A DNA stretch of 57,675 bases, taken from positions 1 to 57,675 of the forward strand of contig CALINO010000077.1 in assembly GCA_938045295.1 (NCBI GenBank). Direction: 5' to 3'. Shown here in pieces: positions 11,106 to 20,217 of this stretch. Within the stretch, counting starts at the first letter, position 1. Each line of letters starts with the position of its first letter. Source of the stretch: an uncultured Arenicella sp. Lineage in GTDB: Bacteria > Pseudomonadota > Gammaproteobacteria > Arenicellales > Arenicellaceae. The notes beneath the pieces are model-generated. The model was not told the DNA's origin and searched no databases. It was given only the letters and a program-made list of their open reading frames with translations. The translations under genes and the position numbers were made by a program.

Positions 11106-13052
11106 ATGAAGCAAAAAACAGTTATCTTAAGTCAGCCACTCATTAAAACCTTGAGTTTGAATAACAACTCAAGCGTGAGGCTAGGCTTGAGTATGACCAT
11201 GCTCTGTAAACGGCTTATTGCGCGGCGTTTTTCTTCCGTTGTTGTGTTGATTGCATTGTTAGTTGGTTTGCAAGGTTGCGCTACCAATGGGCAAGGGCAA
11301 AATGGACAAGCGCTAGACACTAATGAAAGTGACGTTCAGCGTACTAATGATATTGGCAGTGTTGTTGAGGCGAATCCTGATCAATTGAACGTCAGCACCG
11401 ATGAAGAGCTGGCCGTCGACCCCAAATTACCCAAGCTGGAATTAGACGCTCAAACGCTTGAGTATTTGTTGCTAATGAACATGGCGAGTTTTAATGGCCA
11501 GTGGGTTGTGGCAGCGGAAACTGCGAACAAAGCGGCGATGGCGACCGAAGATTATCGATTGGCGCGTTTGGCAACATTATTGGCATTGCGCGCAGACAAT
11601 TACTCGTTAGGGCTGGAAGGCGCCACGCTTTGGCAACAATTGGATCAAGATGGGCCCGATGCATTAAATATGCTGTTGATCACCCAGCTTGGGGCTGGCG
11701 ATATTGAAGGTGCCAAAAATAGTATGGCACTGCATGCCGAAAACTATGAGTTGGATTCGCATATTAAGCAAGTGGCGGCACTGTTAGTGCGGCAAAAGAA
11801 CCAAGATTCGGCACTGGCTTTGGCTGCGTATATGGTCAATGAGTATGACGATTCTGCTCAGGCAGCATTGAGCGCGGCGTACGTGGCTGAGTTTTTTGAG
11901 AACTTCGCGCAAACTCAAGAGTGGGTTGAAAAAGCGTTGTCGCTAAAGCCTGACTGGGAGTTGGCGGCGCAAATGCAGGCGAAAGCGTTGCAATCACAAG
12001 ATAAGCTTGATGAACGTAGTGAGTTTATTGAATCGTATGTAAAACAGCACCCTGAGTCGGTGTCGATGAGAGTGAGCTTAGCGGCTGATATGGTGCGCAA
12101 AGGCGAGGTCAAGCAAGCTTACGATTTAGTGCAAAACCTATTGTTAGAAGTGCCACGTGACACGGGCGTGTTGCAATATGCCGGCGCTTTAGCTGAAAGC
12201 GAAGAGGACTACGAAGCCGCCGCGCGCTTTTATCAGCGAGCGTTAAATATTGACCCTAATGACGATGAAATACGGTGGTCGTTAGCGCGGCGTGCATTTC
12301 GAGATAAAAACTATACCTTGGCTGAGCGGCACTTTAATGACATTAGAAGTAATGAACTGTTGTTTGATGCTCAAATTCAAGTGGCGAATACGCGTTATGA
12401 GCTTTACGGTTCAGAGTCGGCCATTAATACCTTGGCTGGGCTTAACCCGCGCACCGAAGCGCAATACGTCAGCTTGGCATTAACGCGGCATTATATTTTG
12501 ATGGCTTCGTACCAATACGAAGAAGCCTTGGGCGCCATGAATGAAACGCTGTACTACATTTCAGGCAATTACGATTTAATTTATGCACGGGCTTTAGTCG
12601 CCGCGGAATTAAAGCGCCTTGATATCGCCGAGCCTGACTTTCGCGCCATTATTGAGGCGCAGCCAGAACACGCCAATGCGCTGAATGCATTGGGCTACAC
12701 CTTGGCAGATCAAACCAGCCGTTATGATGAAGCGCGCGAGTTAATTAAAAAAGCCCTGGAGCTGCGCCCGAATGATGCGCACATCTTAGACAGCATGGGG
12801 TGGGTGGCTTACCGCCAGAATGACCTTGAAACAGCGCTTGAGTATTTAGAAAAAGCCTATGCGGCCAGTGAAGAAGTTGAAATTGGCGTGCACTTAGGTG
12901 AAGTGTTGTGGGAAATGGGGGAGCAACAACGAGCCAAGGAAATTTGGCTTAAATGGTATCAAGAAAAAAGTGATAATCGTCTATTATTAGAAACCATGAA
13001 GCGTTATCAAATTAACACGAGTTCGAATGCTGATTTGATCTCTGCAAAGTAA
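11106..13052 (+). CDS. TPR-repeat lipoprotein
   Basis: Up to 648 residues. A hydrophobic stretch SSVVVLIALLVGLQGC ends in a lipobox cysteine at residue 58, so the true start is more likely the ATG at 11193 (MTMLCKRLIAR), which leaves a normal signal length and has AGG-rich sequence upstream. The mature part is all helical TPR-type repeats. The clearest are near AARFYQRALNIDPNDDEIRW, ANALNALGYTLADQTSRYDEA and ILDSMGWVAYRQNDLETAL. A TPR protein directly before lolB also occurs in Pseudomonas. The role is unknown, but an outer-membrane anchored scaffold in the periplasm is likely. Only 12 bases separate it from lolB. Confidence 0.85.
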   Translation: MKQKTVILSQPLIKTLSLNNNSSVRLGLSMTMLCKRLIARRFSSVVVLIALLVGLQGCATNGQGQNGQALDTNESDVQRTNDIGSVVEANPDQLNVSTDEELAVDPKLPKLELDAQTLEYLLLMNMASFNGQWVVAAETANKAAMATEDYRLARLATLLALRADNYSLGLEGATLWQQLDQDGPDALNMLLITQLGAGDIEGAKNSMALHAENYELDSHIKQVAALLVRQKNQDSALALAAYMVNEYDDSAQAALSAAYVAEFFENFAQTQEWVEKALSLKPDWELAAQMQAKALQSQDKLDERSEFIESYVKQHPESVSMRVSLAADMVRKGEVKQAYDLVQNLLLEVPRDTGVLQYAGALAESEEDYEAAARFYQRALNIDPNDDEIRWSLARRAFRDKNYTLAERHFNDIRSNELLFDAQIQVANTRYELYGSESAINTLAGLNPRTEAQYVSLALTRHYILMASYQYEEALGAMNETLYYISGNYDLIYARALVAAELKRLDIAEPDFRAIIEAQPEHANALNALGYTLADQTSRYDEARELIKKALELRPNDAHILDSMGWVAYRQNDLETALEYLEKAYAASEEVEIGVHLGEVLWEMGEQQRAKEIWLKWYQEKSDNRLLLETMKRYQINTSSNADLISAK

Positions 13053-13064
13053 CGAGCTCAGAGT

Positions 13065-13790
13065 ATGTTGTTGGTAAAGTGTTTGTCTAAATCCGTATCT
13101 GGGTTTGTGCCTGGACTTCTGTCTAGATATGGATCTAGATTTCTATCTAGGCCAGTATGGTTGTTGTGGGTGTCGGCGTTGTTTTTAACGGCCTGCCAAA
13201 CCAGTATTAAAGCGCCGCCAGTGCGTGATGGGTGGAGTACTGACCCAGCGTTATTTTCATCTCGAGATGCTTGGCAAAAAGAGATGTCTGGCTGGAAGCT
13301 GTCCGGCAAAGTGGGTATTAGAACCCCAGACATTAAAGAGTCGGCCAATTTGATTTGGCAAGTGAATGGCGATAAGAATGTGATTCGGCTTTTTGGCCCT
13401 CTCGGTGCCGGTGCGGTTAGGCTTGAATTTGATGCGCATCAGGCGGTGCTTAAAGACCAAAAAGGCAATGAATATATTGGCTCTGACGCCGAAGCGTTGT
13501 TGCAGCGAGTGGTGGGTTGGCCAATTCCTTTGACCGCGCTTAAGCGCTGGGTGTTTGCACTGCCCGCCGATGATAGAGCCTATCAATACGTGGCTGAAGG
13601 CGATCAACTCAGAGCCTTGGATCAGGCCGGTTGGGCAATTACATATAATGCCTATAAACCGTATTTAGCGGGTGCGCCGACACTGCCCAGAAAGATAATT
13701 GCCACCGCTCAAACTTCAGATAATGAGGCTGATGAGCAAGTAGTGGTTCGCCTGATCGTGAAGTCGTGGTCGCAAAATAAAGTAAAGTAG
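13065..13790 (+). CDS. lolB: Outer membrane lipoprotein receptor LolB
   Basis: LolB takes lipoproteins from the periplasmic carrier LolA and inserts them into the outer membrane. The 241-residue protein has a lipobox FLTAC (Cys44) and LolB-type strands: SGWKLSGKVGIRTPD, NLIWQVNGDKNVIRLFGPLGAG and LLQRVVGWPIPLTALKRWVF. Its signal peptide is unusual: a 30-residue n-region made of six tetrapeptide repeats precedes the hydrophobic core. It sits between the TPR lipoprotein and ispE, as in Pseudomonas. Confidence 0.93.
   Translation: MLLVKCLSKSVSGFVPGLLSRYGSRFLSRPVWLLWVSALFLTACQTSIKAPPVRDGWSTDPALFSSRDAWQKEMSGWKLSGKVGIRTPDIKESANLIWQVNGDKNVIRLFGPLGAGAVRLEFDAHQAVLKDQKGNEYIGSDAEALLQRVVGWPIPLTALKRWVFALPADDRAYQYVAEGDQLRALDQAGWAITYNAYKPYLAGAPTLPRKIIATAQTSDNEADEQVVVRLIVKSWSQNKVK
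13086..13157 (+). repeat. Six 12-bp tandem repeats in the lolB signal sequence
   Basis: Six degenerate 12-base units, roughly TCT-(A/G)GA-TTT-(C/G)TA, lie end to end and in frame. They encode the tetrapeptides SKSV, SGFV, PGLL, SRYG, SRFL and SRPV. Confidence 0.8.
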
Positions 13791-13826
13791 GCCAAAAATA
13801 AGCTCAGTGAGCAGTCATAAAAAATC

Positions 13827-14750
13827 ATGGATCCTGTGCATCTTAATTCCTCAGCGTACCTTAGCCCCTCGTTCGCTTGGCCATCGCCGGCGAAAATTAA
13901 CTTGTTTTTGCACGTGGTGGGTAAGCGCCCTGATGGCTATCACCAACTGCAAACGGCGTTTCAATTTCTAAGCTATGGCGACGATTTGTTTTTTGAGGTT
14001 AATCAAAGCGGCAAGGTGACGCGTAATTACGATTTGGGCTTTTCAGAACAGCGTGATTTGTGTTTGCGTGCAGCGCATGAAATGAAGAAATACGTGCCCG
14101 CTAACAATGGCGTTACCATCGGCCTAACTAAGCGTTTGCCAATGGGTGGCGGCTTGGGCGGCGGCAGTTCCAATGCGGCCACGGTGCTGTTGGCATTAAA
14201 CAAACTATGGGGCGCTGAGTTAAGTTGCGATCAATTAATGCAAATTGGGCTGCGTTTGGGCGCCGATGTGCCGATATTTATTTATGGGCGCTCCGCATGG
14301 GCGGAAGGCGTGGGCGAGGTTTTTACCCCCGTAAAGCCGCCTGAAAGCTGGTTTGTGGTGCTAAATCCTGGGGTGGAAGTGTCAACAGCTGAAATTTTTT
14401 CAAATAAACATTTGACACCAATGCCCCAGATGAAGAAAATACGCGCTCTCGAGAAAGGCATCGATTCAAACGCGGCTGAAAATTTCGCATTTGAAGGTGT
14501 CATTGACTCAACATTTGGTGTTAATCAGTTAGAGCCGATTGTTCGTGCTGAACATCCAGAAGTTAATAGTCTTCTTGAGTGGTTGTCGCAATATGGTCAA
14601 CCCCGAATGAGTGGCTCAGGCGGCTCTGTGTTTCTTCCGGTAAGGAATAAGCAGGTCGGTGATGATATTTTGCATAAGCGACCATCAAATTCAGCAGGTT
14701 TTGTTGCTAAAGGTGAAAATTTTCACCCATTGTACAAAAAAATAGAGTAG
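13827..14750 (+). CDS. ispE: 4-diphosphocytidyl-2-C-methyl-D-erythritol kinase
   Basis: IspE phosphorylates CDP-methylerythritol with ATP in the MEP pathway for isoprenoids. The 307-residue GHMP kinase has PAKINL at 21-26, the ATP-binding loop PMGGGLGGGSSNA at 105-117, and the C-terminal GHMP motif PRMSGSGGSVFLP. The first 15 or so residues before SFAWPSPAKINL are an extension without a clear role. It follows lolB by 36 bases and precedes tRNA-Gln. Confidence 0.97.
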   Translation: MDPVHLNSSAYLSPSFAWPSPAKINLFLHVVGKRPDGYHQLQTAFQFLSYGDDLFFEVNQSGKVTRNYDLGFSEQRDLCLRAAHEMKKYVPANNGVTIGLTKRLPMGGGLGGGSSNAATVLLALNKLWGAELSCDQLMQIGLRLGADVPIFIYGRSAWAEGVGEVFTPVKPPESWFVVLNPGVEVSTAEIFSNKHLTPMPQMKKIRALEKGIDSNAAENFAFEGVIDSTFGVNQLEPIVRAEHPEVNSLLEWLSQYGQPRMSGSGGSVFLPVRNKQVGDDILHKRPSNSAGFVAKGENFHPLYKKIE

Positions 14751-14855
14751 AATGCGTTCCGCTCATTAGTACGATGATTGGCAAGGAAAACCGATTGAAG
14801 ATGAGTGATTGATGGTTTGGGAAAGTGTATTTCTCAAGCTACCGAGATAGAGTAC

Positions 14856-14932
14856 TGGGGTGTGGCGAAGTGGCCTAACGCACCGGATTTTGATTCCGGC
14901 ATTCGAAGGTTCGAATCCTTCCACCCCAGCCA
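14856..14932 (+). tRNA. tRNA-Gln(UUG)
   Basis: Full cloverleaf: acceptor TGGGGTG/CACCCCA, discriminator G, encoded CCA, and anticodon stem CCGGA/TCCGG with loop TTTTGAT (anticodon UUG). T loop TTCGAAT. Its place between ispE and prs is conserved in gammaproteobacteria. Confidence 0.97.
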
Positions 14933-15057
14933 TCTATTCTCTCTTCATATTTTCTGTTTCTAGAAAACATACTCTGAAGAAATGCAGTGACGGTGAGAAC
15001 CTAAGTTTCATCGAGGTTTATGTGCCGTTTTTATTGTAACTTTCGTCTGAGTCGTGG

Positions 15058-15086
15058 CTGAAAAAAATATAACGAACACTTATAAT
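15058..15086 (+). promoter_or_regulatory. Promoter for prs
   Basis: -10 TATAAT (15081-15086) and a weaker -35 CTGAAA (15058-15063) are spaced 17 bases apart, followed by the GC-rich discriminator GCGGCGGGC. Transcription would start about 85 bases before the prs GTG. Confidence 0.6.
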
Positions 15087-15178
15087 GCGGCGGGCTTGCA
15101 GTCGGTCATATTAAGGTGTGACTGCCAAGCATGCTGTAGTTTAATGAAATTGAACAGCTATCATCGTAGAGGCTTCTA

Positions 15179-16135
15179 GTGGCACTTGAAAACTTACTCG
15201 TTTTTTCTGGTAACGCTAACCCTGAGCTAACAGCTCAAGTGGTTGATTATCTTAAAGTTCCATTGGGCAAAGCCCGTGTTGAACAATTTAGCGACGGTGA
15301 AATAGCCGTTGAAATTCAAGAAAATGTGCGTGGGCGCGATGTGTTTATCGTGCAGCCAACGTCGGCGCCAAGCCATAAAAATTTAATTGAATTATTGTTG
15401 ATGATTGATGCGTGCAAACGATCATCAGCACACCGTATTACGGCGGTAATGCCATATTACGGTTACTCACGCCAAGATCGCCGCCCGCGTAACTCAAGGG
15501 TGCCGATCAGTGCAAAATTGATTGCCTCTATGGTGAGCACTGCGGGTGCTGACCGTGTGTTAATCATGGATTTACACGCAGACCAAATTCAAGGCTTTTT
15601 TGATATTCCTACCGACAACATCTACGGTTCGCCGGTGTTGTTGGATGACATTCGAAACCTTGATGAAGACAACTTAGTTGTTGTGTCACCCGATGTTGGT
15701 GGTGTGGTTCGTGCTAGAGCATTGGCCAAACGCTTAGGCGTTGATTTGGCAATTATTGATAAGCGTCGCCCTAAAGCGAACGTTGCCAAAGTAATGAACA
15801 TTATTGGTGATGTTGAAGGCCGTAGCTGTATTCTGATCGACGATATGGTTGATACAGCGAACACCTTATGCAAAGCGGCTGACGCGCTAAAAGAGCATGG
15901 CGCTACTGCAGTACGCGCTTATTGTACTCACCCGGTATTATCCGGTGAGGCGGTGAATAGAATTAATGCATCAACCATGGACGAAGTAGTGGTGACGAAC
16001 ACCATTCCATTGTCTGATGCAGCCGCAGCAAGTGATAAAATCAGGCAGTTGTCGGTAGCGCACTTGTTGGGAGAGTCGATTCGTCGAATTACGGTTAGTG
16101 ATTCGGTGAGTTCGTTGTTTACTGAAATCGACTAA
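15179..16135 (+). CDS. prs: Ribose-phosphate pyrophosphokinase
   Basis: Prs makes PRPP from ribose-5-phosphate and ATP, feeding nucleotide, histidine, tryptophan and NAD synthesis. The 318-residue protein is complete. [10 protein letters not shown] at 93-102 is the flexible ATP-binding region, [12 protein letters not shown] at 131-142 the divalent metal and ATP site, and DDMVDTANT at 221-229 the PRPP loop. The start is GTG, with AGAGG about seven bases upstream. The next gene is rplY, 92 bases away. Confidence 0.98.
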
Positions 16136-16156
16136 GGTCGTATTCAGTAAAGGTTA

Positions 16157-16174
16157 GCATTAGTTTACTAATGC
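16157..16174 (+). promoter_or_regulatory. Inverted repeat in the prs-rplY spacer
   Basis: GCATTAGT and ACTAATGC are perfect 8-bp arms around TT. There is no T-run, so it is more likely an RNA processing or protein-binding site than a terminator. Confidence 0.35.
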
Positions 16175-16227
16175 GTGTTTGGAAACGCTGGCTTAATTAG
16201 TAAGTCAGTTTTATTTAGAGAAATAGT

Positions 16228-16911
16228 ATGGCTAATTTTATAGTAGAAGCTGAAGTAAGAACCGGATCTGGTACAGCTGCCTCACGTCGTGCGCGTCGTA
16301 ATGGTCAAGTTCCAGTGGTGGTCTATGGCGGTGGAGAAGATGAGCAATATCTATTGGTGGATCACAACAAGATCAGTCACCAATTAGACGTTGAAGCTTT
16401 CCATTCCGCGTTAGTTCAATTGAAAGTGGGTGATGAGGATTTGCAACGCGCAGTATTGCGTGACGTGCAAATGCACCCATATAAAGCACGAGTAATGCAC
16501 TTAGACTTTCAACGTGTAAGTCGTAAAGACAAGATCACAATGACAGTGCCTTTCCACTTTGCTGGTGAAGATGTTGCCCCAGGTGTTAAGACCGATAGCG
16601 GTATCATGACTCACAACATGGTGTCGGTTGACATCACGTGTTTGGGTAGTGATTTACCTGAGTACATCACGGTTGACGTGTCTGAGTTGGGTGTTGGTGA
16701 TTCAGTGCAATTAGGCTCGGTTAAATTGCCTGAAGGCGTTGAGTTTGCTGCAAGTTACCAAGAGCAAGACCTTGAGCAGTCGGTTGCCTCAGTATTGGCG
16801 CCAAAAGGCCCAAGTGAAGCCGCTCTTGCTGAAGAAGCGGAAGCCGAAGCGGCTAAAGCGGAAGCAGCTGCAGAAGCGGGTGACGCTGAAAACGGCGGTT
16901 CAGACGAGTAA
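16228..16911 (+). CDS. rplY: 50S ribosomal protein L25, long (Ctc) form
   Basis: L25 binds 5S rRNA in the large subunit. The 227-residue protein is the long Ctc-type: an N-terminal 5S-binding domain of about 95 residues (SGTAASRRARRNGQVPVVVYGG, then YKARVMHLDFQRV), a C-terminal TL5-like beta domain (KDKITMTVPFHFAGEDVAPG), and an Ala/Glu-rich acidic tail from about residue 194. The gene ends five bases before the pth ATG. A terminator hairpin lies inside the start of pth and may end many rplY transcripts. Confidence 0.96.
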   Translation: MANFIVEAEVRTGSGTAASRRARRNGQVPVVVYGGGEDEQYLLVDHNKISHQLDVEAFHSALVQLKVGDEDLQRAVLRDVQMHPYKARVMHLDFQRVSRKDKITMTVPFHFAGEDVAPGVKTDSGIMTHNMVSVDITCLGSDLPEYITVDVSELGVGDSVQLGSVKLPEGVEFAASYQEQDLEQSVASVLAPKGPSEAALAEEAEAEAAKAEAAAEAGDAENGGSDE

Positions 16912-16916
16912 TTGTT

Positions 16917-17507
16917 ATGAACACATCGCCGATCAAACTGATTGTCGGTCTCGGCAATCCGGGCGAAAAGTACACAAAAACCCGGCACAATGCCGGGTTT
17001 TTGTTTTTAGACCAACTGCTTGTGCAGACCGGTGGTGCCCTTAAAGCTGACAAACATTGCTTTGGGCGCAGCACTAAGGTGCAAATAGCCAACACTGAAG
17101 TACGCTTACTGGCGCCCGATACGTTTATGAACCTCAGTGGAAAGTCTGTGGTTGCCGCTTGCCAATATTATAAAATTGAGCTGTCAGAAATACTGGTGGT
17201 TCACGATGAGCTTGATTTAGATGCCGGTATTGCTCGGTTAAAATTAGGTGGCGGTCATGGTGGCAATAATGGCTTGCGAGACATTGCCCAAAAAGGGGCG
17301 AGCAAAAATTTTGCGCGCCTTAGAATTGGTATTGGCCACCCGGGTGTTGGGCGCGATGTGTCGGCTTACGTATTAAAACAGGCCAATAAAGCCGACCAAG
17401 CGGCGATCGATTTGGCGATTGCGGAAAGTTTACGCGTGATCGATTTGGTGGTGCAAGGCGAGTTCCCGCGTGCGATGAACGAGTTGCACACAAATTTAAG
17501 TAAATAA
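16917..17507 (+). CDS. pth: Peptidyl-tRNA hydrolase
   Basis: Pth frees tRNA from peptidyl-tRNAs dropped by stalled ribosomes and is essential. The 196-residue protein has GLGNPGEKY at 11-19, the catalytic histidine His24 in TRHNAGF, and conserved HDELDLDAG and GGHGGNNGLRD further on. Start ATG, five bases after rplY, so translation is probably coupled. The codons for TRHNAGFLF form a strong intrinsic-terminator structure, an oddity described separately. Confidence 0.97.
   Translation: MNTSPIKLIVGLGNPGEKYTKTRHNAGFLFLDQLLVQTGGALKADKHCFGRSTKVQIANTEVRLLAPDTFMNLSGKSVVAACQYYKIELSEILVVHDELDLDAGIARLKLGGGHGGNNGLRDIAQKGASKNFARLRIGIGHPGVGRDVSAYVLKQANKADQAAIDLAIAESLRVIDLVVQGEFPRAMNELHTNLSK
16976..17008 (+). 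terminator. Intrinsic terminator inside the pth coding sequence
   Basis: AAAAACCCGGC (16976-16986) pairs with GCCGGGTTTTT (16992-17002) around the loop ACAAT, followed by GTTTTT. That is an 11-bp stem with an ideal U-tract. It spans pth codons 20-31 and lies 65 bases past the rplY stop. Translating ribosomes would melt it. Untranslated RNA should terminate here. Confidence 0.75.
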
Positions 17508-17579
17508 CTATTCTGAATACGACTAAAACGTGTTCAATGAATTTAAGTCAGCTGGGCAAAGGCCCGTTAAGAGGAAATT

Positions 17580-18671
17580 ATGGGATTTAAATGTGGCATT
17601 GTAGGTTTGCCAAACGTGGGTAAATCAACCCTGTTTAATGCGCTTACTAACTCTGGAATTCAAGCAGAGAACTACCCATTTTGTACTATTGAGCCTAATG
17701 TGGGCATGGTTGAAGTGCCCGATCCGCGCTTGCAGCGTTTGACTGAGTTAGCTGAGCCAGCAAAAACGATTCCTGCGACCATGGAGTTTGTTGATATTGC
17801 CGGTTTGGTTGAAGGTGCATCAAAGGGCGAAGGTTTGGGTAATCAGTTTTTAGCCAACATTCGTGAAGTGGACGCCATTGCACATGTGGTGCGCTGTTTT
17901 AATGATGAAAACGTCGTACACGTTGCAGGTAAAGTGGACCCGGCGTCTGATATTGAAGTGATTCATACTGAGTTGGGTTTAGCCGACTTAGACACCGTTG
18001 AAAAAGCCGTTGAACGGGCGGCCAAGCGTTCAAAGTCAGGCGACAAAGAACAAATCGCTATTAAGGCCGTTTTAGAGCGCGTTGCGGCTCACTTAAATGA
18101 AGGTGAGCCGGTTAGATCTCTTGGGCTGGACGAAGACGACTACGACAAAATAAAGCATTTGTGTTTGATGACGGCAAAGCCAACCATGTACATCGCCAAT
18201 GTTGACGAAGCGGGGTTTGAAAATAATCCTCACTTAGATACGGTGAATGCCATTGCCGAAAAAGAGAATGCCGGAGTGGTGGTGATTTGCGCGGCCATCG
18301 AATCTGAAATAGCCGAACTGGATGACGATGAAAAAGTGGAGTTTCTTGAAGAAATTGGTCAAGAAGAACCTGGCTTAGATCGCGTTATTCGAGCCGGTTA
18401 TGAATTGCTCGGCTTGCAAACTTATTTCACCGCCGGCAAGACAGAAGTGCGCGCTTGGACCATTCGCAAAGGCTATACCGCACCGCAAGCCGCGGGCGTG
18501 ATACACACCGATTTTGAGCGCGGTTTTATTCGAGCTGAAACCACCGCCTACGTTGATTATGATCAATTTAAAGGTGAGCAAGGCGCCAAAGAAGCGGGAA
18601 AATTTCGCTTAGAAGGCAAAGACTACATCATGCAAGACGGCGATGTGGTGCACTTCAGGTTTAATGTTTAG
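17580..18671 (+). CDS. ychF: Redox-regulated ATPase YchF
   Basis: YchF (OLA1 family) is a P-loop NTPase that prefers ATP and associates with the ribosome. It is implicated in stress and translation control. The 363-residue protein has the Walker A loop GLPNVGKST at 9-17, the switch region [10 protein letters not shown], the G3 motif [14 protein letters not shown], and a C-terminal TGS domain with [17 protein letters not shown] good ribosome-binding site, AAGAGG, lies six to seven bases before the ATG. It closes the pth-ychF pair, with modA 20 bases further on. Confidence 0.97.
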
Positions 18672-18691
18672 CGCTGGTTGTAGAGTTTATA

Positions 18692-19537
18692 TTGTTATTT
18701 AAGCTTACTAAGCAACCTAGGTTATTTACACTATTGAGTGCAGGCCTTGCTTGCACTTTCGCCTTTCTCAGTGCGGTTTTTACAGACGCTATGGCGCAAC
18801 AGTCAGAACAGTCAGTTGAGCCAATTACGGTGGCCGTTGCCAGTAATTTCATTCGCCCAGCCAAAGCGCTGGCCAGTGAGTTTGAAGGGGCGGGTAACAC
18901 ATCGCCTGTTTTCATATTTGGTTCCACCGGTAAACACGTAGCTCAAATTGAGCAAGGATTGGCGGTTGATATATTGCTGGCCGCCGATAAAGCACGGCCA
19001 CAATACTTGGCGGATAAAGGCCAAGCAATTAATGACCAGAGGCACACCTATGCCGTAGGCCGTTTGGTTTTCTGGTCGCCGGGTCGCTCGCTGACGGGCA
19101 AAAGCTTAGGTGATGTGTTAACGCCAGAAAATGTATTGATAGAAGGTACGTCAGTAGAAGGTTCGGCCAAGAAAACAGCGAGCGTACTGGCCATGGCCAA
19201 CCCTAGATTGGCTCCTTATGGTTTAGCGGCACAGCAAGTCTTAACTTCTTTGGGTATTGAGCAAACACACAGGCGGAAATACGTTATGGGCGAAAACATT
19301 GCTCAAACGTTTCAGTTTGTTGCCAGTGGCAATGCCGAGGCGGGTTTTGTGGCGGCGTCTCAAGTGCAAGAATTGCCCGCAGATGAATATTTGCTGGTGC
19401 CTCAACAATTTCACAATGCCATTGAACAGCAAATGGTGTTGCTGACGAATAAGAAGCAAGCGAAAGCGTTCTATCAATTTATACTGAGCCCGAAAGGCAT
19501 GGAGATTATCCGCAAACACGGCTACGATACGCGGTGA
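18692..19537 (+). CDS. modA: Molybdate ABC transporter, periplasmic binding protein
   Basis: ModA captures molybdate or tungstate in the periplasm. The 281-residue precursor has a signal peptide ending about residue 36 (AFLSAVFTDAMA, then QQSEQ). Family motifs follow: ITVAVASNFIRPAKALA, FGSTGKHVAQIEQGLAVDILLAAD, LAPYGLAAQQVL and AGFVAASQV. The annotated start is TTG with weak ribosome-binding signal, so the exact start is uncertain. The stop overlaps the modB start, the head of a tight modABC operon. Confidence 0.92.
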   Translation: MLFKLTKQPRLFTLLSAGLACTFAFLSAVFTDAMAQQSEQSVEPITVAVASNFIRPAKALASEFEGAGNTSPVFIFGSTGKHVAQIEQGLAVDILLAADKARPQYLADKGQAINDQRHTYAVGRLVFWSPGRSLTGKSLGDVLTPENVLIEGTSVEGSAKKTASVLAMANPRLAPYGLAAQQVLTSLGIEQTHRRKYVMGENIAQTFQFVASGNAEAGFVAASQVQELPADEYLLVPQQFHNAIEQQMVLLTNKKQAKAFYQFILSPKGMEIIRKHGYDTR

Positions 19538-20217
19538 TGATAGCGCACGCCGATTTAATAGCATTAGCCACCACCTTAAAATTAGCCAGCATTAGTACCC
19601 TTGTGTTGTTGCTGTTGTGCACCCCTGTGGCTTGGTGGTTGGCAAATACTCGTTGGCGTTATAAACACATCATTGAAGCGATTGTCGCATTGCCATTAGT
19701 GTTACCACCCACGGTGCTTGGGTTTTATTTATTGCTTTGGTTTAGCCCGCAAAGCGCGGTTGGTTCGTTTTACCAACAGCTCACCGGCTCTACGTTGGCG
19801 TTTAGTTTCACCGGCTTAGTGATCGGCTCGGTTATTTATTCACTGCCCTTTGTATTGCAGCCGTTGCAGAACACATTTAGTGCCATTGGCCGTCGCCCCT
19901 TAGAAGCCGCAGCAACTTTAGGCGCGTCACCGTTAGACTCGTTTTTCTCCGTGGTTGTGCCTCTGGCGAAACCGGGGTTTATCACCGCGTCGGCGTTGGG
20001 CTTTGCACACACATTGGGCGAATTTGGGGTGGTGCTGATGATTGGTGGCAATATTCCCGGTGAGACTCGAGTGGCGTCAATCGCTATTTACGATCACGTT
20101 GAGTCACTGCAATACGCTAATGCCCACAGTTTGGCACTAGTATTGTTGGGCGTTTCGTTTTTATTATTGGTGTTTGTGTACGCCAATAACCGTTCCGTTT
20201 TGGTGAGCAAAGCGTGA
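19534..20217 (+). CDS. modB: Molybdate ABC transporter permease
   Basis: ModB is the inner-membrane channel. The 227-residue protein has five to six membrane segments, and the EAA loop that contacts the ATPase reads EAAATLGASPLDSFFSVVVPLAKPG. Near the end AHTLGEFGVVLMIGGNIPGETR is the ModB signature. The start is GTG at 19534 or ATG at 19537, both overlapping the modA stop. The stop overlaps the modC GTG as GTGA, which points to translational coupling. Confidence 0.95.
   Translation: MMIAHADLIALATTLKLASISTLVLLLLCTPVAWWLANTRWRYKHIIEAIVALPLVLPPTVLGFYLLLWFSPQSAVGSFYQQLTGSTLAFSFTGLVIGSVIYSLPFVLQPLQNTFSAIGRRPLEAAATLGASPLDSFFSVVVPLAKPGFITASALGFAHTLGEFGVVLMIGGNIPGETRVASIAIYDHVESLQYANAHSLALVLLGVSFLLLVFVYANNRSVLVSKA

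Follow-up and report, generated by a model that had tools for sequence, protein, structure and literature searches.

In the window analysed here (57,675 nucleotides of contig CALINO010000077.1 from an uncultured Arenicella sp.), the codons of pth that specify the TRHNAGF motif of peptidyl-tRNA hydrolase, whose His24 we take to be the catalytic residue, were found also to form an RNA hairpin that is followed by a U-rich tract. We are highly confident that this hairpin is real and under selection, since its codons are conserved far above expectation and its pairing is compensated upon an Ala-to-Val replacement, and we regard it as very probably functional, an element of control and not an accident. 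One stretch of DNA thus lies under two codes, that of the catalytic-motif residues and that of a terminator-like hairpin, a state maintained between distant relatives through the use of rare synonymous codons and, where the peptide differs, through compensation. Our preferred reading, to which we assign a probability of about 0.55, is that the hairpin would work as a translation-sensitive intrinsic terminator, so that transcripts coming from rplY would end within pth whenever RNA polymerase is not followed by a ribosome. The features discussed are listed below.

Coordinates of genes and sequence features around the pth hairpin (positions are those of the window)
Feature	Positions	Strand	Basis and remarks
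rplY (ribosomal protein L25/CTC)	16228-16911	+	ORF; directly upstream of pth
rplY-pth intercistronic gap, 5 nt	16912-16916	+	leaves no space for an intergenic terminator
pth, peptidyl-tRNA hydrolase, 196 aa	16917-17507	+	ORF; NCBIfam TIGR00447 match over cut-off
Upstream hairpin candidate (GATTGTCG GTCT CGGCAATC)	16940-16959	+	possible partner element; no support outside the family
Putative terminator hairpin	16974-17004	+	fold; 14 bp, 3-nt loop; inside pth codons 20-31
5' arm (A-tract + ACCCGGCA)	16974-16987	+	fold
Core palindrome ACCCGGCA-CAA-TGCCGGGT	16980-16998	+	pth codons 22-28; the part conserved class-wide
Loop CAA, 3 nt	16988-16990	+	fold; 5 nt where relatives have Asn25 AAC
3' arm TGCCGGGTTTTTGT	16991-17004	+	fold
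U-tract TTTTTGTTTTT	16998-17008	+	codons F28 TTT, L29 TTG, F30 TTT and start of L31 TTA
ychF	17580-18671	+	ORF; downstream, so termination in pth should affect it

The hairpin reads ACAAAAACCCGGCA, then CAA, then TGCCGGGTTTTTGT, with TTTTA next, and was found to fold at -22.1 kcal/mol compared to a mean of -7.6 for shuffled sequences (z -5.68; none of 200 shuffles was equal or better). The 11-bp stem and 5-nt loop of the original prediction (16976-16986 / 16992-17002) proved right and represent the inner part of the 14-bp hairpin; the placement within codons 20-31 of pth was likewise confirmed from the ATG at 16917. The stem is GC-rich with a short loop and is directly followed by the U-rich tract, as in intrinsic terminators, and the first T's of this tract also pair with the A-tract of the 5' arm. 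The additional claim of a strong intrinsic terminator held for the anatomy of the coding strand, with termination as such being predicted, at RNA 3' ends of about 17004-17008. The peptide itself favours a palindrome at this site because TRHNAGF fixes three of the core pairs on both sides and the other five on one side. Full pairing needs ACC (or ACT), CGG, GCC (or GCT) and GGG, and the innermost pair also requires AAT. When the 2.99 Mb genome was searched for the 17-nt centre of the palindrome with up to 2 mismatches allowed, a single copy was found.

Codon use at the hairpin was compared within the family Arenicellaceae, for which a pth match was found in 19 of 21 genomes and none in the other 2. 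The 19 distinct genes came from three genera and encoded proteins with identity down to 49%. All 19 were found to carry ACC CGG CAY AAY GCC GGG TTT, for which 0.06 of 19 were expected, and all four free pairs were kept in each gene. This conservation includes rare codons, with CGG accounting for 7.4% of Arg and GGG for 6.5% of Gly codons in the family loci (7.2% and 12.5%, respectively, in the sample of the Arenicella genome itself). Among the 59 sites at which a degenerate amino acid was invariant, 8 also had an invariant codon (N14, G16, T22, R23, A26, G27, F28 and F30), and six of these eight (T22, R23, A26, G27, F28 and F30) belong to the hairpin and its tract. In the U-tract, F28 and F30 were TTT in 19/19 genes and L29 was TTG in 18/19. 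When scored by a d'Aubenton Carafa-type d-score, all 19 family genes fell between 16 and 42. Judged from sequence, the Arenicellaceae hairpin is of the anatomy of a strong intrinsic terminator, with the U-tract kept along with the stem, and we consider it likely that it acts as a terminator in this family.

The pth hairpin was also ranked among other hairpins of its own genome, by scanning both strands of 376,191 bases (the window and 20 further stretches) for a hairpin followed by a U-tract. By this approach, 75 candidates were detected at -9 kcal/mol or better, among which the pth hairpin was 16th by stem energy. At a threshold of dG <= -18, the 376 kb sample contained 22 intergenic candidates, no antisense candidate and 1 sense candidate internal to a coding sequence, namely the pth hairpin; at -15, there were 36 intergenic and 2 sense CDS-internal candidates. 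With a d-score of 41 the pth hairpin was 8th of 51 in this sample and the sole sense CDS-internal candidate with d > 20. A simple hairpin scan listed it for the minus strand alone, since on the plus strand the first T's of the tract are taken up by the longest stem. Read on the minus strand, the hairpin has a fair tract (TTTTTGTG) that scored 30 compared to 41 on the plus strand, and a minus-strand score above 0 was found for 14/19 family genes. It could therefore also stop antisense transcripts and might act against antisense transcription. The tract of the coding strand outscored that of the opposite strand in 19/19 family genes (median 41.4 vs 9.4) and in 30/33 class genes, a comparison in which Phe codons alone push toward the coding strand.

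Conservation was next traced in the order Arenicellales and the class Gammaproteobacteria. In the order sample, 98/109 genomes had a match, at 99 places; 91 of these were read and 8 were left out (second copy in G091, G057, G083, G042, G043, G044, G046, G047). In the class sample, 360/370 genomes had a match, and 106 loci (L173-L278; 105 distinct) were taken from the better-scoring among the matches listed, mostly one per family. All free pairs were present in 35 of 88 class genes, compared to 0.72 expected from the codon usage of each gene, when only the rows with TRHN[AV]GF were counted out of 105. With locus-wide codon usage, the count was 35/102 against 1.38 expected, after omission from the 105 of rows that lacked RHN and G or had fewer than 400 codons. 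All free pairs were similarly found in 13/70 genes of the order outside the family (1.30 expected) and in 10/58 of the genome_contigs set (2.74 expected). Since rows are related, any p-value calculated as if they were independent is too low. When 86 sites were scanned without bias across the 105 class genes, F30 TTT ranked 1st, G27 GGG 2nd, R23 CGG 4th, A26 GCC 5th and T22 15th. The sites were found to act as a unit: where three were Watson-Crick paired, the fourth was too in 31/34, 31/32, 31/34 and 31/35 cases, compared to 15.0, 7.2, 13.0 and 5.3 expected, respectively. In 342 class genomes drawn evenly, for which the matches outside the individually read loci were not each confirmed to lie inside pth, the fully paired codon set was detected in 73 genomes and in 56/256 genera, with 4 of the 73 being Arenicellaceae. 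The same set with a non-pairing Arg codon (CGA, CGC or CGT; AGA and AGG were not counted) was present in 3/342.

Relatives that have the same peptide and no hairpin had been named as grounds to doubt the prediction. None were found within the family, in which 19/19 genes keep the hairpin, and many were found across the class. The stem was absent from pth of Escherichia coli, Aeromonas caviae, Acinetobacter cumulans and Proteus mirabilis (one record each), and because the genes of these four species are without it, the stem is dispensable. Outside the class, a Silvanigrellales contig was found to have AAA ACC CGG CAC AAT GTC GGG TTT TTA TTT in pth, a hairpin with a good U-tract. Separately, three records of 4-5 Mb designated as plasmids (NZ_AP026896.1, NZ_CP134663.1 and NZ_OL790811.1) carry pth, at places where the PLSDB table is without gene annotation, and look like mislabelled chromosomes.

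The original prediction had pointed to compensatory synonymous changes as a sign of selection. In the core, two synonymous sites cannot compensate for each other, since the amino acid fixes one side of each pair; the nearest equivalent, an Arg codon that follows an Ala/Val replacement, was observed. With Val26 instead of Ala, base 14 of the core becomes T instead of C. Among rows that keep ACY and GGG, Arg23 was CGA in 5/8 of those with Val26 (the others being CGG, which pairs by G-U, in 2 and CGT in 1), compared to CGG in 47/49 of those with Ala26 (CGA in 1, CGT in 1). The difference in CGA (5/8 vs 1/49) gave a Fisher p of 8e-5, calculated from related rows. The five CGA/Val26 rows came from three families (L101, L108 and L109 of f9, L200 of f70, and L268 of f14), and the compensated form was detected in 7/342 genomes of the even draw, from families f70, f14, f96 and f113. 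Since Arg23 changes from CGG to CGA when Ala26 changes to Val, it is the base pairing that is kept and not the codons as such.

The U-tract was found to be less uniform than the stem outside the family, where Trp29 usually breaks it to UUYUGGUUU and the weak form seen class-wide is of the TTCTGGTTT type. Median d-scores were -1.5 in the class (16/36 above 0), 1.1 in the order (7/13) and 10.8 in the genome_contigs set (6/9). This distribution speaks for an alternative that we consider doubtful and yet the foremost of the competing explanations: an RNA element under selection whose main job is a different one, such as pausing of RNA polymerase or the ribosome, an RNase processing site, or 3' stabilisation of rplY mRNA, of which the Arenicellaceae U-tract would be a side branch. 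The stem is far better conserved across the class than the tract, F28 is not biased to T but leans to TTC (51/95 vs 40.5 expected in the class), and Trp29 places GG in the tract in most genomes, all of which agree with this alternative. By contrast, the excess of TTT at F30 in the class was larger with the stem (24/26, 11.9 expected) than without it (34/47, 25.1 expected; one-sided p 0.04). The stem is also nearly always present when residue 29 is Leu, in 4/5 genes outside the family (compared to 29/103 with Trp29, p 0.03) and 19/19 within it, and TTT TTG TTT is nearly invariant in the family; these points argue against a tract that is incidental to the stem. For the order outside the family, F30 was TTT in 7/12 genes with the stem (6.9 expected) and 35/47 without (19.5 expected), and F28 was TTT in 8/8 with the stem (4.2 expected) and 13/32 without. 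The tract signal is thus mixed, because the F30 excess in the order does not go with the stem while F28 TTT is 8/8, and this disagreement at F30 between class and order again fits an element with another job. Overall, the indications that stem and U-tract go together outside the family are modest and mixed.

The reading as a translation-sensitive terminator depends on the position of the hairpin in its operon. Between the end of the rplY stop codon (16911) and position 16976 lie 64 nt; the hairpin is made 62-93 nt past this stop codon and starts 57 nt inside the pth ORF. The rplY-pth gap had a median of 5 nt among the 19 family genes. By tblastn, rplY was detected upstream at 76/77 stem-bearing and 180/188 stem-less loci, so its adjacency is not specific to the stem. 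Downstream, ychF was detected at 70/77 stem-bearing loci and at 237/265 of all distinct loci; in E. coli, pth is co-transcribed with ychF (PMC8138138). The gap was shorter in stem-bearing genomes overall (17 vs 40 nt, p 2e-9), a difference absent from the genome_contigs subset (21 vs 21 nt). A short gap as a correlate of the stem was rejected, as it fails phylogenetic pairing (of 9 independent pairs, 2-3 were concordant and 0-1 discordant). On a YchF tree of 176 rows, the stem state itself changed at least 26 times. The idea that the hairpin substitutes for an intergenic rplY terminator was also set aside: such terminators were found at 2/76 stem-bearing and 14/180 stem-less loci (one-sided p 0.10, not significant), and because they are rare with or without the stem, the hairpin is not clearly replacing them.

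We propose the following sequence of events for a translation-sensitive terminator. RNA polymerase leaving rplY would make the hairpin within the early part of pth. The ribosome that finishes rplY might reinitiate at pth 5 nt further on, or a new ribosome might load at once; the small gap would plausibly suit reinitiation. That ribosome would cover the 5' arm and keep the hairpin from forming, and transcription would continue through pth and ychF. With no ribosome on pth, transcription would stop at about 17004-17008, and rplY mRNA would be plentiful compared to that of pth-ychF. The purpose of such an arrangement may be to lower pth-ychF relative to rplY and to tie pth-ychF to the translation of pth. 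Termination in vivo and its relief by translation are both steps that we infer, and the geometry of the hairpin and the gene gap allows control of the pyrL type. Since terminated transcripts would have the pth start and no stop codon, their translation should give non-stop complexes. If the hairpin does terminate, the gene of a ribosomal protein and that of an essential enzyme of low abundance would share a transcript without an intergenic terminator. A broader version of this proposal, which we put forward as tentative and rather improbable, is that of an ancient gammaproteobacterial cis-element that would abort transcription when the rplY ribosome fails to enter pth. The supply of pth-ychF would then report on reinitiation and coupling, and the non-stop pth mRNAs would feed the rescue pathways that Pth serves.

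Far more of a ribosomal protein is needed than of Pth, and this demand, together with the strong anatomy of the hairpin and a 5-nt gap that leaves no room elsewhere, would also suit a plain leaky terminator that fixes the rplY:pth-ychF ratio, with the position of the ribosome having no regulatory use. We find this unlikely: a hairpin 57 nt inside a translated ORF is ribosome-sensitive by construction, and a terminator in the spacer would be simpler and yet is rare in stem-less relatives. Autoregulation through the hairpin by Pth or the level of peptidyl-tRNA, which had been raised in the original prediction, has the function of the gene in its favour and is very improbable. Its simple form has the wrong sign, because a shortage of Pth would make translation slower and termination more frequent, and so deepen the shortage (positive feedback), and no known sensor RNA family exceeded threshold between 13000 and 20000. 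Least credible of all is a DNA palindrome bound by a DNA-binding protein, as the near-perfect inverted repeat, the conservation that a DNA site would also show and the one copy per genome that would fit a single operator are set against CGA/GTC and CGA/GTT forms that change the sequence yet keep pairing, G-U variants (GCT; CGG with GTC), and U-tract codons that are kept in the family as well.

Other candidate RNA features of pth were also considered. The seven consensus pairs of the upstream hairpin candidate all form in 17/19 family genes, and the hairpin appeared in 14/19 single-sequence folds. A trp-type antiterminator pairing is possible between CCGGG (16959-16963) and CCCGG (16981-16985), with P15 codons being independent of the stem class-wide. 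An upstream hairpin or antiterminator at codons 8-16 was rejected as a class-wide element, given the P15 codon being unlinked to the stem and the lack of third-base covariation between L12 and P15 across the class (z 1.1, rank 559 of 1756 pairs). In the family, AAT CCG GGC at 16956-16964 (codons 14-16) was found with N14 and G16 codons kept in 19/19 genes and P15 CCG in 17/19; this invariance suggests a second RNA feature upstream of the putative terminator, perhaps in Arenicellaceae only. A second hairpin register (ACC CGC CAY AAY GCG GGT) was rejected at 5 vs 3.06 expected in the class and 4 vs 1.11 in the order, the latter from clustered relatives, and control registers were uninformative, being forbidden by the peptide. 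When positions 13000-20000 were compared to Rfam, only a tRNA (14856-14929) exceeded its gathering score; rnk_pseudo and Leu_leader matches below gathering were taken for terminator look-alikes. A second patch of synonymous bias was observed at pth codons 65-74 (about 17109-17138) in the class loci, with 14 examples: S74 was AGT in 40/105 (18.2 expected), L65 CTC in 36/89 (14.1), T69 ACC in 64/93 (38.4) and F70 TTC in 49/80 (34.3).

The hairpin has a practical consequence, in that a control element could be lost if pth were recoded to common codons. The pth hairpin resembles the premature 3' ends that are found inside ORFs of E. coli, a few of which arise by intrinsic termination (PMC7815308), but the E. 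coli pth gene that was read is without the hairpin. The main text of that 3'-end study (PMC7815308) gave no hit for pth, and in a study of Pseudomonas aeruginosa (PMC8297930) peptidyl-tRNA hydrolase is named in a reference only. Among the literature matches listed, which covered few subscription papers and make for a weak absence, no title or abstract start described the pth element. A search of similar coverage, also with few subscription papers, returned no paper that combines rplY, pth, terminator and operon.

Attenuation of pyrBI involves a UTP-sensitive pause, a feature that we do not ascribe to the pth element. In the pyr leader of E. coli, it is established that an intrinsic terminator is kept from forming when RNA polymerase is closely trailed by a ribosome (PMC5021804). 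A ribosome behind RNA polymerase would similarly prevent the pth terminator, as in attenuation of pyrBI by pyrL (PMC5021804). The systems differ in that pyrBI uses a dedicated leader peptide, whereas pth would use its own active-site codons and probable reinitiation from rplY.

The closest likeness in anatomy is to arfA of E. coli and brfA of Bacillus subtilis, ribosome-rescue genes that have an intrinsic terminator inside the ORF (PMC8012679). Like these genes, pth has a terminator-like hairpin built of codons before its stop codon, from which a truncated non-stop mRNA would be expected, and it serves the recycling of stalled or abandoned peptidyl-tRNA (PMC8012679). The brfA terminator lies just before the stop codon, compared to codons 20-31 for the pth hairpin. 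For both arfA and brfA, the protein made from the truncated mRNA is the active one, whereas the pth fragment of about 30 of 196 residues would, by its position, surely be inactive. Since truncated Pth cannot be active, the likeness to arfA and brfA is in anatomy and not in use of the product. If the hairpin does terminate, pth would stand next to arfA and brfA among the genes of peptidyl-tRNA recycling whose ORF contains a terminator.
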